Shown here: positions 3,558 to 25,250 of the stretch, in pieces
How the letters are laid out: each line of letters opens with the position of its first letter
Position numbering within the stretch: position 1 is the first letter of the stretch
IMG/VR virus record: IMGVR_UViG_3300025128_000304
Location: 1-25,312 of that record
From: a virus
Length of the DNA stretch: 25,312 nt
Direction: 5' to 3' (one strand)
Program-made: the position numbers and the translations under genes
Notes under the pieces: model-generated
Databases searched by the model: none
What the model saw: the letters and a program-made list of their open reading frames with translations, nothing else
Told to the model about the DNA's origin: nothing

Positions 3558-6500
3558 TTACGGTTGCACATACTGTGGATCGCGAGATGCGTTCAGCGAC
3601 TCAAGCATCTTTTGTGTTACTGCTGTAAAGTCTGGATGTCCGGGCTTTTGAAGATAGTATGGGCTAAAGTCATCACGTCGCGTGACTTTGCCAAATACAT
3701 CACTCAGCGCGCGGTTGGTGTACATCTTTTCAACGCGCTTGAGTTCCTTGACCAGATCGCCCCTAAATCGAATGTCCGGCCCCTGCCTCTTTGCCATCCC
3801 ATCTGTGGCTTTAATGATCGCCTCAGACATAGACATGCCGTTAATCTTCAGCATTTTTGACCTGTAGTAATTCAAAAAATACGTTGCTTCTGCCGGAATT
3901 TGTATCCCGCGATAATTAGTCGTGTTGTTGGGAGCGACCGCCCCCAACGCCTCATAGCGAACGGCGAGAAGATTGGGGTCGCGGGTAGAGACGCGCGGTC
4001 CCATACGGAAACCAAACGGCGACATCATAGTTTCGGAATACGACTTCGTGTCCCCGAAGAAATCAACATTCTGAGCAAGACTGTGCGGAGCCGCGCGCCG
4101 CTTGTAATCGTTAATCATCTCGTAATAGAAGCGCGTCAACTCAGAGCTTGGGTCGCCGCCTGCTTCAACCGTGGCGTTGAATTGGTCAAGCGTCATGCGC
4201 TTACTTGGGACACCGGCCTCTCGACCTCTCTCGGCTTGAGATTTTTGATAACGTGTGCGCGAGATATGCGCCCACAAACTAGAACGCGGATACCCAAGGC
4301 CCGGCACGGCTGCGGTTGCTGTCTTTGCGTACTCACCACCGAGAACGCGGATAAACCTAGAAACCTTGCTGTCGCCTTCCTCTCTCGGAGGAGACGCCAA
4401 AGCATCAAGAACGCGCGAAAAAGCCTCTGCCTCTGGGCGTTGACTCAACTGGTTCACCATTAAGTGAGACCCAACAAATGCAATCTTTTCGGCCATCCCT
4501 TCTTCGCTTCTGTAGTCAAATTCAGTAAACGCCTCACGGGCTGCTGCGGCCATCAAGAACGGCGCAGTCATATATTCCATTCGCTCAAGGTTAATAAACG
4601 CCTCGCCTTCAAATTCTCCCGTTCCTAGCGTTATCGCGCCCGGCCCCATAATCTTAGCGACCTGATATTTGATTTCATCAGTGATGTCTGCCGATTCTGT
4701 GCGGAAACTGTTTGGACGCCAGCCGCTTTTCTCCATGATCTCGCGCCGCTTGTAATCGGCTGGTCCGGGGCCAGTAAACGAGTCATCATAAAACACAGCC
4801 GCAAAAGCAGCAGTTCCCATCGCCTGCTTGGCAAGCGCCATGTCGCGATGACGGCCACCCTTTTTCCAATTTGTGTAGAAAGCCGGAGAAAGCTGCGCGA
4901 ATGGTGTAACCGCCAAGCCCTCAATGACGCCATTGTGTGCAGACTTTGCAAACATTGTTAGAGGCTTGAGCAACTTTGATTGCGCGACTCGCTGCGTCGC
5001 GTAGTGCATCTTGCCAATAGCTGTAGAGCGATCAATATCGCCCTGCAAAGAAACTTGCTTTCCGTAATCAAGCATGTCTCCAAGAGTTTCGATTGGCGTT
5101 TCATCTGCAAACTCAACAAGAGCCTGCTGCTGCGCCTTAATTGCGTCCTCGGGAGACAGGCCCGCCTCAATCGCGTCGTCATATACCTTCGCTGCGTGGC
5201 GCATAGCCTGCTCTTGGTAAACGACCGTATGCGCGAAACCCTTGGAGAACTCGTCCACCATGCCCATTGGGCGGAAAGACAAGAGTTCCTGAAGCAACCC
5301 TACGCCTTGGATTATCCGCCCAATGGCGTTTGGTTCTAACATCTGCCCGTCTTCCTCTTTCATCGTAGGGAAGAACTGGACCTCTCGGCCTCTTACCGAA
5401 ACTGTTTTTGTAGGGATTTTTAAAAACCCACCTACATTAAGAGGCGCTCTATGAAAGTGTCGGGGGTCCATTTTGTTTGCAGAAAAGTCGCGCGTTGCGC
5501 CGCCTTCTACGGCAAACTTTGCAGCGCGGACAACGGCGGCACGAAGCCCTGTAACATAGCCAGATGCGCGCAGCACAACATCTTCTGCATAATAGCGATC
5601 TGGGTCGGCGCGTTGCCCAAAAAGGGATTGGCGCGTCTTACCGATTGCAATAGCCGCTGGCGTAGAAAGCGTTTCTGCCAGCATGTTGACCATAGACGCC
5701 GCACTAAACAGCCATGTGTCTGGGCTGCTGATATACATAGATTGAGCGGTTTGGATGCCTGCGTCAAAAAAAGCACCCAATATGCCGGGTCGCAGCATCT
5801 TGCTGCGCTCACGATTGCTTTCTGCGTTGTGCAGCTCGTTCGCCAAATCGCGAAGATGGTTCATGCCGCCATTGGTTGACACAATGTCGTCAAGGACGCT
5901 CATTGACTCTACGTTCGTAAGGTCCCCCATCTTCTTAAATACGTTCATGGTGCGCGCAATGTCTGTCGCGCCGTCTTGGAAGTAGCTAATCATGATGCGC
6001 TGACGTTCAGCCACTTCTACAAAACGAGCCGCTTGCTCTGTAGTGGCATTGCCAACACGCATAACTTCTTGCAGTTCTCTTAACTCAGCCCACCCGGTAT
6101 TCAGCATGTCAACCATACCGGCAAAGGTCTTGCTAATCTCGTCACCACCGATCTTGGTGGTCATGTCCTTTCCTTGGAACTGCTGGTTGATAATGCGCTC
6201 CTTAACGCCAGCCTCTCTCGCATCTGCAACAATATCGTCAATGGTGCGCGGCTTTTTAGGGTCAACTGCGCGGTCGCCAAACTCCTTGACCAGCGCAGCA
6301 AGACCATCCTCATCATAGAACGTAGTGTTTGGCTTGAAAGGCGCAGCCTCTACGCCCGCCTCTTTTTGTGACGGCGTGGGGGAAGGCGCTTGGCGCGCAT
6401 TGATTTCGTCCTGAGCGCCAGCGTTTACAATTTCTTCAAGATCGTCTTCAGCAAAACTTTCCTGCACAGACTTAGAGGCAGGCGTTACAGGCGTGTCCGG

Positions 6501-21386: not shown

Positions 21387-21793
21387 TCTTTCTCCTGTGT
21401 GTCTTCATCAATTATTTGGTAGGTCGTTGTGTCTGGACCCTTCACGTTAATCCCGATCATGCTGGGACGGCGGTCATCACTATTCGGCTCAAGCAAGCCA
21501 CGATGCTTCGCCAACAGGCGCAAGGCAGATAGCTTGTCGTGCATCTCCACCTCAATCGTGTTGCCCTCCTCGCCGGGCGTGATCTTCACCTTCTTGATTG
21601 CGCGACGAGCGCGCGCAGATAGCTGATCCGACGCCCTAACCTGAACGCGACCCATCTCATCCCACGACAGCACGTCCGTAATCTCGCTGCCCGACAGCGC
21701 CTCAAGTTCCTGTACGACCGCTTGTCGGCGGTCCTCGTCTGCCGCCTCTAGCGCGGCGCGTGCTTCACGAACGGATAAGGGTTTGTCAGACAC
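21383..21793 (-). CDS. terS: Terminase small subunit, putative
   Basis: The 136-residue product has a charged helical N-terminus (SVREARAALEAADEDRR), a middle ALSGSEITDVLSWDEMG region (residues 32-48), a basic RARRAIKKVKI stretch (61-71) and MHDKLSALRLLAKHRGLLE (84-102). The HDKLSALxLLAKHxGL motif is typical of phage small terminase C-terminal parts. Position two genes before terL supports the call. Translation starts at GTG (21793, or 21796) with GAGGGG 7 or 4 bases upstream, overlapping the end of the PAPS-reductase-like gene. In-frame upstream ATGs would run far into that gene. Confidence 0.8.
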   Translation of the reverse strand: MSDKPLSVREARAALEAADEDRRQAVVQELEALSGSEITDVLSWDEMGRVQVRASDQLSARARRAIKKVKITPGEEGNTIEVEMHDKLSALRLLAKHRGLLEPNSDDRRPSMIGINVKGPDTTTYQIIDEDTQEKE

Positions 21794-22583
21794 CACACAT
21801 CCCCTCACACTCCTCGTTGAAAAAATTGAGCTGCCCCATGTCTTCCAAGTTGCGGAAGTCCACTTCGTCCAGCGGCTTGCAGGAGCGGTGCAAATATTGC
21901 GGCCCATCACTAGTCCCTACGTTGCGTATCTGCTCATCAAATTCCACGGCCTGCGCGAACGACTCAGGGTCGGTCATCTTCATATCGCGCCAAAGTGCGT
22001 CATTATGAAAAGGACAGCCAATACATGCCGACTTTGCCAGCGACCGACCGGGGTAGTTTTTCTCAAACCACCGCAGACAGTCCTGCCGCGACATGCCCGC
22101 GTCAATCAGTGGCCAGACGTTCTCCACCCAAGCGTCACGGGAGGGCTTCATCCTCATGGCTTCGTCGGTGCTAATGCCAATCCACTGCCGAACCTGCACG
22201 CCTTTCGGGGCGCGCTGCCGGTATTTCAGGCCCAGCAATTCCCGCAGTTTTTTTCTTATCGGATAGATTTTATAGTCAGCCGTGCATTGCCTCATTCCCA
22301 TGCCGCTAGAGTCAGAGAAAAACGGGATTGCCGAGTATTTGCGCGGCTTTCCATTTCGCTCGGAATTAACGTGGTCGGCGCGAATATCCCCCGCCGTGAC
22401 GCGGTGAACTGGAAACGAAAGCTGCGTTTCCAACCAGTCCAAGTGTTCGTAAACGCCCGCTGGCTCAAATTGCGTGTCCGCGAAAATCGCGCAATCCGGC
22501 ATCGGCGTGAGTTCGCCCCGCGCCGCCATCAGCGCCATAACGGTGCTTTGAACGCCAGCACCTAGCGATATAACCTCAATCAT
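21786..22583 (-). CDS. PAPS-reductase / PP-loop family protein with Fe-S cysteine set
   Basis: The 265-residue product begins with a PP-loop, SLGAGVQST (residues 6-14), of the adenine nucleotide alpha-hydrolase/PAPS reductase superfamily, and has FADTQFEP (34-41). Four cysteines occur as RQC100TADYKI, C187IGC190PFH and HRSC235, a spacing that could ligate a [4Fe-4S] cluster as in some thiolation and reductase enzymes. ALWRDMK follows the CxxCPFH. Homologues are often called phage PAPS reductases, but the true substrate is unknown: sulfate reduction, tRNA or DNA thiolation are all possible. AAGGTGG precedes the ATG. It sits directly before the terminase genes. Confidence 0.82.
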   Translation of the reverse strand: MIEVISLGAGVQSTVMALMAARGELTPMPDCAIFADTQFEPAGVYEHLDWLETQLSFPVHRVTAGDIRADHVNSERNGKPRKYSAIPFFSDSSGMGMRQCTADYKIYPIRKKLRELLGLKYRQRAPKGVQVRQWIGISTDEAMRMKPSRDAWVENVWPLIDAGMSRQDCLRWFEKNYPGRSLAKSACIGCPFHNDALWRDMKMTDPESFAQAVEFDEQIRNVGTSDGPQYLHRSCKPLDEVDFRNLEDMGQLNFFNEECEGMCGV

Positions 22584-23305: not shown

Positions 23306-23971
23306 TTAATTTATTGCGCGGGCAACGTCAGCAAGGGCTGGAACGCCAGCGCGCCGTTCTAGGCATGCCCTCGCCTGTGCTTCCGTTGCTTCGATCACTT
23401 GTTCCACCGTCACACCCTGCGCTGCCAGTATCCGAGCCGCGCCTAGTTCATTCTCAGGTCTGCGAGATTGGCCAAGGGCGCGTTCGATTGCGTGGGAATA
23501 GGCGTGTGCGAGAGAGTGAGAGAGAGATTGATTGGCGTCATGTTCCCCCGTACCCCCTATATCATTCATGTGCGCGTCTGGTGCGTCTGAGGCCGGAGAC
23601 AGTAGCTGCGACGATTGCACTTCTTCCCACGATGGCAAGGGCATGTCCGGCTGATAAAGAACCTGATAGCGGTTTATCTTCCCGAACTTGGCGTGTTCCA
23701 TCTGATAGTCCTGCGGGCGCAACTTCCGCACATATCCCGCATTTACTAGCTTTGTGATAGCGCGTGACACGGAAGCGGGATCAACGCCAAGCATTGCACC
23801 GATTGTCTTAACGCCCGGCCAACAGACGCCGTGACTGTTCGTAAATACGCACAAAGCCACCAGCACGCGGAAGTGTGACTGGTGCAACTTGCGGTCCAAC
23901 AGCGCCCGCACTGGTATTACCGACCATTGCCGCTTGATCTCGATTTCAGGCTCAGAATGGGATTTCATCAT
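23306..23971 (-). CDS. Winged-helix protein, replication-initiator type
   Basis: The 221-residue product has a winged helix-turn-helix at about residues 34-85 (FRVLVALCVFTN...WPGVKTIGAMLGVDPASVSRA followed by KLVNAGYVRK). This is the helix-turn-helix type seen in phage replication proteins of the lambda O N-terminal kind and in RepA-like initiators. A His/Ser-rich linker (about 125-165) leads to a helical C-terminus (ARILAAQGVTVEQVIEATEA). The two adjacent ATGs lie 17-20 bases inside the upstream gene. Its nearness to the phased repeats at 24.6-24.8 kb suggests it binds there as initiator or regulator; this is inference. Confidence 0.75.
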   Translation of the reverse strand: MMKSHSEPEIEIKRQWSVIPVRALLDRKLHQSHFRVLVALCVFTNSHGVCWPGVKTIGAMLGVDPASVSRAITKLVNAGYVRKLRPQDYQMEHAKFGKINRYQVLYQPDMPLPSWEEVQSSQLLSPASDAPDAHMNDIGGTGEHDANQSLSHSLAHAYSHAIERALGQSRRPENELGAARILAAQGVTVEQVIEATEAQARACLERRAGVPALADVARAIN

Positions 23972-24551
23972 CTAACTCTTTCAATGTTGGCGCTACACTT
24001 TCCACAACCGCACCCGGAAAAGCCATTTTGGCGCGCGTAACAGCGTTTGCAGTTTCATATGACGCTATGACGTTCGCAACCTCGCAAACACTCCAGACGA
24101 CCGCTTCTGGCCGTTCCCGCGCTACCTTCGCCGCTTCATGTATGTTCCGCGTAATACATAGCACACCACCATGAGGAAAGGGCGCTTCCCATGCTTCCCC
24201 GGTAAGTTCCGCGTGTCCGTTTTCGCGTGCCGCTTTTTCAAGCGCCGCATAAGCGCGGCATGATATCGGAACAAGACGCACCACCTCGGAAGCGTCGCCT
24301 TGCCAGATTGCTTTGTTCAACAGATCGCACTGCGCCTCAAACCGTTCGCGCAGTTCTGGTGACACAAGGTCAGGCAATCTATCGATACCCCATCGCGCTT
24401 CGTATTCCGTCACGACCCGGTCGTGTTCCAACAGCGCGTCCCGGATTTTCGTATAGGCGCGCTCATTCATCCCGGACAAGTTCCGCACCGGCCCGAGCTC
24501 CGGTTTTGTGACCCGTCGCCTTTGACGCGGTTTCTTATTCGGCACACTCAT
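23952..24551 (-). CDS. Unknown 199-residue protein, first gene of minus-strand block
   Basis: The product begins MSVPNKKPRQRRRVTKPELG, a strongly basic start. A helical region follows (MNERAYTKIRDALLEHDRVV and YEARWGIDRLPDLVSPELRER), then RLVPISCRAYAALEKAA and a C-terminal alpha/beta part with GGVLCITRNIHEAAKVA and acidic end DDEIPF. Family not recognised. AAAGGG lies 9 bases before the ATG. It is the first gene after the divergent control region and overlaps the winged-helix gene by 20 bases, so the two are probably co-expressed. Confidence 0.7.
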   Translation of the reverse strand: MSVPNKKPRQRRRVTKPELGPVRNLSGMNERAYTKIRDALLEHDRVVTEYEARWGIDRLPDLVSPELRERFEAQCDLLNKAIWQGDASEVVRLVPISCRAYAALEKAARENGHAELTGEAWEAPFPHGGVLCITRNIHEAAKVARERPEAVVWSVCEVANVIASYETANAVTRAKMAFPGAVVESVAPTLKELDDEIPF

Positions 24552-24591
24552 TAGAAAAACCCTTTGCTGTTTTTTTGTCCGTCGGTCGGTC

Positions 24592-24632
24592 GGTCGGGGT
24601 AGCGTCCCCTATAGGGACGCGACCACCCGACC
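24592..24632. repeat. Cruciform-like inverted repeat
   Basis: An inner 7-base stem (GCGTCCC 24602-24608 with GGGACGC 24614-24620, loop CTATA) is nested in an outer 7-base stem (GGTCGGG 24592-24598 with CCCGACC 24626-24632), separated by small internal loops. No T-run follows in either direction, so it is not an intrinsic terminator. Confidence 0.7.
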
Positions 24633-24681
24633 ATGACCCCGACTTCAGGCCGTTTGGGTCCGACCTAAGCCCGACCGAAAT

Positions 24682-24708
24682 CCGACCTGTAATGATTTCA
24701 ATCACTTA
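24682..24708 (+). repeat. 27-base direct repeat, copy 1
   Basis: Contains CCGACCTG followed by TAATGATTTCAATCACTTA. It matches copy 2 at 24779-24805 in 24 of 27 positions, 97 bases apart. The core TGATT-TC-AATCA is an inverted repeat, as in a small operator. Confidence 0.85.
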
Positions 24709-24778
24709 TGCGCCGACCAAACCCCGACCATGCCCGACCGCGTAAACTACATCTAAAACAGTGTAATACGACCACTTT

Positions 24779-24805
24779 CGGACCTTTAATGATTTCAATG
24801 ACTTA
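24779..24805 (+). repeat. 27-base direct repeat, copy 2
   Basis: Contains CGGACCTT followed by TAATGATTTCAATGACTTA, three differences from copy 1. As in copy 1, a degenerate CCGACC element begins the unit, preceded 11 bases earlier by another (ACGACC at 24768). Confidence 0.85.
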
Positions 24806-24974
24806 CAGACACCCCGTATAGGTAGCATTTTGCGCCTTTTCGGCACCACAAGTTCGCGTATTAGTTGCACTGTTTCACCCCGTTTTGATTTTTTTTACCG
24901 TTTGCCCTTGCGCATTCTGATATCGTTCCTATGTCTTCGTTATAGCACAACGCAACACAATGGAGAACCTAAAC

Positions 24975-25250
24975 ATGAACATCTTAGACCGCATCGAAGC
25001 CCGCTTCACCGAAACCAAGAACGCTTGCAAGCTGTATGCTAGCATGGCCGCTGCCACGAAAGCAGCCGACCGTGAGGTCGCCAAGTTGAACAAGGCGCAC
25101 AACACTGACATCGACTGCCCCTACATTGTTATCTTCGTTCCCAGCCAAGAAAAGCTCACCATAGTCTTTGACTTCACTCGCTGGGTGCAGCAGTACGGCA
25201 ACGGCACCTACCTCGGCTGGTTCGCACAGCGCAACTTCTTCAGCATCTAA
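24975..25250 (+). CDS. Unknown 91-residue protein on the divergent strand
   Basis: First plus-strand gene. The product begins MNILDRIEARFTETKNACKL with an amphipathic helix, then ASMAAATKAADREVAKLNKA. A second part (about residues 50-91) has beta-like YIVIFVPSQEKLTIVFD and an aromatic C-terminus (WVQQYGNGTYLGWFAQRNFF). No family recognised. GGAG lies 9 bases before the ATG at 24975, which I prefer to an in-frame ATG 5 codons upstream that would contain this ribosome-binding site. A GC hairpin follows. It is probably an early or regulatory phage gene. Confidence 0.75.
   Translation: MNILDRIEARFTETKNACKLYASMAAATKAADREVAKLNKAHNTDIDCPYIVIFVPSQEKLTIVFDFTRWVQQYGNGTYLGWFAQRNFFSI

Follow-up and report, generated by a model that had tools for sequence, protein, structure and literature searches.

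What does a dense run of CCGACC repeats do in the gap between two diverging groups of podovirus genes? The DNA that we analysed, an IMG/VR virus record of 25,312 bases (hereafter the window), comes from a podovirus and encodes a terminase large subunit that shares 64% identity with its counterpart in Methylophilales phage MEP301; a megablast search of the window against phages returned no match. The repeats occupy the gap between leftward genes, encoding gp199 and then a 221-aa protein, and a rightward gene of 96 aa (Table 1), and a preliminary description of the locus had proposed an origin or master switch bound by the 221-aa protein. A phosphoadenosine phosphosulfate reductase-like gene (phrog_424, E 6e-50) is encoded at 21786-22583 on the minus strand.

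Architecture of the repeat array

Ten of the 22 copies of CCGACC/GGTCGG in the window are packed into ~160 bp, a density with a Poisson probability of ~1e-18, and the total of 22 itself compares with 11.5 expected and was reached in none of 100 shuffles. The seven CCGACC and three GGTCGG copies of the preliminary description, with their 10-11 bp steps, are all present, although the three GGTCGG copies do not stand separately and form one overlapping run, a single GGTC run, at the left edge. Together with the two degenerate boxes, likewise found where they had been described, the nine plus-strand boxes (7 exact, 2 degenerate) follow one another at 33, 11, 11, 31, 11, 10, 34 and 11 bp and lie on one helical face, with a best period of 10.8 bp and a resultant of 0.93 that only one of 20,000 random placements reached. 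Iteron origins are recognized, among other features, by several copies of a single short word that are repeated directly and keep helical phase, as is observed here.

The sequence TAATGATTTCAATSACTTA occurs twice in the array, with its copies 97 bp apart. Both 19-mers of the form TAATGATTTCAAT[C/G]ACTTA start 8 bp past the start of the preceding box, so that two boxes indeed lead into them as had been claimed. The surrounding repeat, previously given as two composite 27-base units, is real, but is more accurately given as two copies of 37 bases that are 81% alike and lie 97 bp apart.

Table 1. Features of the array and its surroundings in the window
Feature	Coordinates	Strand	Remark
221-aa HTH_36 / replication-initiation O-like protein	23306..23971	-	Probably not the iteron reader
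gp199, conserved replication-module protein	23952..24551	-	Unmatched fold; C-terminal DDEIPF
Three overlapping GGTCGG (24584, 24588, 24592; CCGACC on minus strand), array left edge	24584..24597	-	Kept in L004 and L005
Palindrome GCGTCCC-CTATA-GGGACGC, between gp199 start and iterons	24602..24620		Fold; compensatory change
Iteron CCGACC 1	24627..24632	+	
Iteron CCGACC 2	24660..24665	+	
Iteron CCGACC 3	24671..24676	+	
Iteron CCGACC 4	24682..24687	+	8 bp ahead of first IHF-type site
First IHF-type site TAATGATTTCAATCACTTA	24690..24708	+	
Iteron CCGACC 5	24713..24718	+	
Iteron CCGACC 6	24724..24729	+	
Iteron CCGACC 7	24734..24739	+	
Degenerate iterons ACGACC (24768) and CGGACC (24779), 11 bp apart	24768..24784	+	Ahead of second IHF-type site; unchanged in L004 and L005
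Second IHF-type site TAATGATTTCAATGACTTA	24787..24805	+	
A+T-richer flank, T8 tract at ~24890	24806..24959		48-60% AT (40-nt steps) against 46% in the window
First rightward gene, 96 aa, beyond array	24960..25250	+	

The palindrome between gp199 and the iterons has a DNA fold z of -3.7, and in the relative L005 it reads GCGCCCC-TTATA-GGGGCGC, with one compensatory change from T-A to C-G. Analogous palindromes are found at the matching place in Rhizobium phage RHph_N65 (N65) and in the contigs L007, L008 and L460, and a search of Rfam returned no match; the palindrome is a candidate promoter/operator or ssi-like hairpin. On the other side of the array, the A+T-richer flank would be the candidate unwinding region. 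The GC skew, calculated for the window, N65 and Paracoccus phage vB_PmaS-R3 (R3), does not point to the array. The sequence TAATACGACCACT at 24764-24776 resembles the start of a T7 promoter and is fully conserved in L004 and L005. We discarded a T7-like promoter, with one exact copy in the window and looser matches that are no more frequent than chance.

Conservation of the array in relatives

The preliminary description implied that the spacing should be kept in relatives, and it is identical in L004 and L005, where gp199 is 89% and 79% identical, respectively, to that of the window and every spacing is kept from box 24660 through box 24768. Among the window, L004 and L005, none of the 35 columns of the CGACC cores and none of the 26 predicted IHF-specific columns is variable, compared with 7 of the 12 IHF W/N columns and 23 of the 107 other columns. 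Repeats and spacing are both conserved in these relatives, as would be expected of an iteron origin. More distant gp199 relatives (L007-L009) also have iterons, and no IHF-type site is present in their arrays, so the IHF bend appears to be common but not obligatory to the module.

The 19-mer resembles an IHF site

A pattern scan recovered the exact 19-mer in at least 119 IMG/VR stretches, and the control scan of IMG/VR with the reversed 19-mer, of the same composition, found no exact copy. Among the matches listed, the 176 viral and bacterial loci represent 119 different flanking contexts and cover a broad span of GC content. Paracoccus phage vB_PmaS-R3 and Rhizobium phage vB_RleA_TRX32-1 are named carriers, and N65 matches at 18 of 19 bases. 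Because the 19-mer occurs in many unrelated phages, we rejected a phage-specific dyad: the TGATT-TC-AATCA dyad of the preliminary description has imperfect symmetry, and conservation does not follow it: in relatives the symmetric half varies and WWTCAR....TTR stays constant. Nor is the composite unit specific to this phage; it is rather an iteron run that adjoins a host IHF-type site. A text search of the literature for the 19-mer or its core, with subscription papers mostly outside its reach, returned no relevant paper.

Near copies of the 19-mer cluster within 400 bp of exact ones (8 found with three mismatches against 0.1 expected) and differ at the NNNN and W positions, with TCAR and TTR persisting. 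In degenerate scans the NNNN positions are likewise free and TCAR and TTR invariant, and A precedes TCAA in 66 of the 81 distinct new loci among the matches listed. For the non-coding matches to ATTTCAATGACTTA that are listed, A or T stands at position -4 in 46 of 51 and at -3 in 46 of 51, and YAATG in 9 of 51. Judged by sequence, the variants fit the IHF consensus WATCARNNNNTTR with an apparently preferred 5' YAATG extension, which is absent from the published E. coli IHF consensus. Each window copy deviates from WATCARNNNNTTR by one mismatch, T for A at position 2 of WATCAR, and the strict WATCARNNNNTTR has no match anywhere in the window. The extended IHF-type site is present in two copies each in the window, N65 and R3, where it is confined to the arrays.

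In bacterial genomes, the coding versus non-coding placement of the 19-mer by phylum is not significant (p = 0.37), and we therefore do not claim that it occurs only in IHF-bearing hosts. The 19-mer abuts interrupted tRNA halves in L071, L033, L155, L167 and L178, which would suit the IHF site of an attP next to the att core. In L151 and L184 it lies ~450-680 bp from a bacterial dnaA gene, perhaps as the IHF site of a chromosomal origin.

The same layout in other phages

Arrays with at least five copies of one 7-mer were present in 25 of 114 motif windows and in 0 of 110 control windows, among the matches listed. The iteron word differs by lineage (TCCGCA/TCCGTA, AATGTTC, AACCATG, ATTATAC, TGTCATA, CTGTGCA and AACATTACG), and in most arrays with other words the nearest iteron begins 7-10 bp ahead of the 19-mer. 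The protein encoded most often next to the 19-mer is a PrimPol or Toprim protein with an AAA_25 (RepA-like) helicase, assigned with Pfam (16 loci, median distance 115 bp), and the 19-mer typically lies 50-180 bp 3' of this primase-helicase; the gp199 family comes second (9 loci), all among the matches listed.

Two cultured phages and one contig illustrate the arrangement. In N65, ATCTCCGC iterons surround two IHF-type sites together with a CCCCTATATAGGGG palindrome beside a helicase/primase gene; R3 combines ATTATAC iterons with two IHF-type sites, close to a primase-like gene; and in L460 a helicase, an array with a perfect TATCAATGAGTTA, a palindrome and a gp199-like gene follow in direct succession. 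At four distinct loci among the matches listed (L044, L065, L115 and L153), DUF1376-like initiator genes, so named from their sequence, contain the 19-mer, as if the origin sat within the initiator gene. Read on the opposite strand, the 19-mer there specifies KSLKSL or a close variant.

Which protein reads the iterons

The 221-aa protein, proposed earlier as the factor that binds the array, is probably not the reader, because L004 (1109-1771) has a different N-terminal, DNA-binding half (ATRKSVFDAIQRL against DPASVSRAITKLV) joined to the conserved C-terminal half, and this swap leaves every aligned CGACC core and the spacing unchanged. Several TCCGCA arrays lack gp199, and the neighbour they share is the AAA_25 helicase with a C-terminal domain; indeed, most TCCGCA arrays with enough flanking sequence have this helicase or its C-terminal domain, L111 and L056 encoding the domain as a protein on its own. 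In the TCCGCA group the domain is modelled as a winged helix (pLDDT 84), for which Foldseek returned weak matches to winged-helix proteins such as the N-terminus of DnaD.

For the window lineage, the helicase was located through L037, a near-identical relative that is overlapped by L505 over 1,693 identical bases. L505 encodes a 621-aa Toprim-AAA_25 protein, the 3' end of whose gene lies ~2.1 kb from the array via the L037 overlap, and its type of C-terminus is kept at 84% in L005 with the same iterons. An iteron origin would be expected at or close to the gene of its initiator or helicase, and the helicase gene is ~2 kb away here (L037/L505) and adjacent in many other phages. L505 also carries a serine recombinase gene at 5388-6017 near the primase-helicase, comparable to gp04 of MEP301. 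The C-terminus of the L505 helicase is not detectably in the family of the modelled domain, and for this reason we can only infer the reader in the window lineage; from its sequence, this C-terminus may also be a winged helix. We suggest that the iterons are most likely read by the phage's Toprim/AAA_25 primase-helicase, through its putative winged-helix C-terminal domain.

In the window lineage, gp199 could also be the iteron reader. Its model is mostly helical (pLDDT 79), and an OB fold or SSB fold was set aside, the model having no PDB match. Members of the family end in DDEIPF, DDPMPF and close variants, an end that resembles the protein-binding C-terminal tip of bacterial SSB. As a guess, gp199 may recruit host replication proteins.

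Alternative functions of the array

Could the array control transcription only, as a divergent promoter/operator with boxes for a repressor or an activator (the 221-aa protein or gp199), with IHF bending being regulatory and the origin elsewhere? Its position between divergent operons and the palindrome with a TATA loop just upstream of gp199 would suit such a role, which we nevertheless consider unlikely, since we found no sigma-70-like promoter, the 221-aa binding half can be exchanged with no change in the aligned CGACC cores, and the arrays of other phages, located 3' of the helicase or with the 19-mer inside DUF1376-type genes, fit poorly to a simple promoter. A packaging site, in which boxes for the terminase small subunit surround an IHF site, is very unlikely. 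Lambda cosB has this layout (R3-I1-R2-R1; PMC4669245) and the window carries a TerS gene (PF03592) ~2.7 kb from the array, but cosB is read by terminase and adjoins TerS, whereas the array has other neighbours and adjoins neither the TerS gene nor a genome end. Moreover, TerL and the array are 8.7 kb apart in N65 and ~10 kb apart in R3, and the close neighbour among the matches listed is the helicase rather than terminase (median 115 bp versus 2,430 bp).

Still less likely is a recombination site of the attP type, composed of arm-type integrase sites and IHF sites. The 19-mer adjoins tRNA halves in some contigs (L071, L167 and L178) and could there be the IHF site of an att locus, but the integrase of N65 is 21 kb from its array, neither the window nor N65 has an adjacent integrase or a core of tRNA identity, and no tyrosine integrase or tRNA was recognised adjoining the window array. 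The partition site of P1, parS, also consists of boxes around an IHF site, an arrangement comparable to that of the array; a parS-like role is the least probable of all, the surroundings of the arrays in the window, N65 and R3 containing no recognisable ParA or ParB gene.

A probable replication origin with iterons and IHF-type sites

We consider it probable that the array is the replication origin of the podovirus, composed of CCGACC iterons read by an initiator and two host IHF sites. The origin part of the earlier proposal is well supported by comparison, that is, by the same layout beside primase-helicase genes and by the 19-mer in DUF1376-type genes. The phased CCGACC boxes would be the iterons bound by the phage initiator, and the two 19-mers would be bound strongly by the integration host factor (IHF) of the host. 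By bending the DNA sharply, IHF would bring the iterons of both sides together on one face, and the bend would allow the adjoining A+T-rich DNA to open. The C-terminus of the primase-helicase may then read the iterons, such that the helicase loads itself, comparable to SaPI Rep/ori. That the array is bound, bent and opened and acts as an origin is inferred throughout.

The RSF1010 (IncQ) RepA-RepB-RepC system with oriV shares an AAA_25/RepA-type helicase, iterons and hairpins near the origin with the present locus, and differs from the array by its separate RepC initiator and 20-bp iterons; RSF1010 is not known to have an IHF site. The origin of lambda, located in gene O, is similar in having a phage-encoded initiator and iterons, and the in-gene DUF1376 cases resemble an ori inside O, but iteron length and loader are different and the window array is intergenic. 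According to PMC7581432 (citing Ubeda 2007), SaPI Rep helicases use a C-terminal domain to read iterons that follow immediately 3' of the helicase gene. Like the origins proposed here, SaPI Rep/ori and the SCCmec Cch2 origins thus have short iterons recognised by the C-terminal domain of a replicative helicase, but their helicases are of the DUF927 or D5 type, they belong to Gram-positive islands, and the accessible text of PMC7581432 leaves IHF unmentioned. The helicase of the window lineage combines AAA_25 with Toprim, and is neither DUF927 nor D5-like as in the SaPI Rep family; a SaPI-type winged-helix C-terminus is modelled for the TCCGCA group, and in the L505 helicase the resemblance is at the sequence level only. 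At the pSC101 and R6K origins, iterons and an IHF site are needed for efficient opening by the plasmid Rep (PMC4980987, PMC5043065). The array likewise has putative iterons plus IHF-type sites, but pSC101 and R6K use 17-22 bp iterons, DnaA and a separate Rep with host DnaB, in contrast to the 6-8 bp iterons at 10-11 bp and the phage primase-helicase here. The array would combine the iteron and IHF idea of pSC101 and R6K with the self-reading helicase idea of SaPI, and the best reading, by analogy with these systems, would be a theta-type origin with lineage-specific iterons and IHF bends.

We also put forward, tentatively but as a real possibility, that the array represents an undescribed, widespread class of origins in phages of proteobacteria, characterized by a near-invariant 19-bp IHF site framed by lineage-specific iterons of 6-9 bp, which a self-loading AAA_25 primase-helicase would read through an exchangeable winged-helix C-terminus. 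For most environmental phages the origin is unmapped, and a near-invariant site for a host factor amid phage-specific repeats would offer a sequence-based means of finding it; if the proposal is true, a search with the 19-mer alone would locate origins in hundreds of uncultured phages. One strong IHF site would then seem to have been adopted by unrelated phages, and the pairing of helicase C-terminus and iteron word would form a natural code that is testable in cultured Rhizobium and Paracoccus phages.
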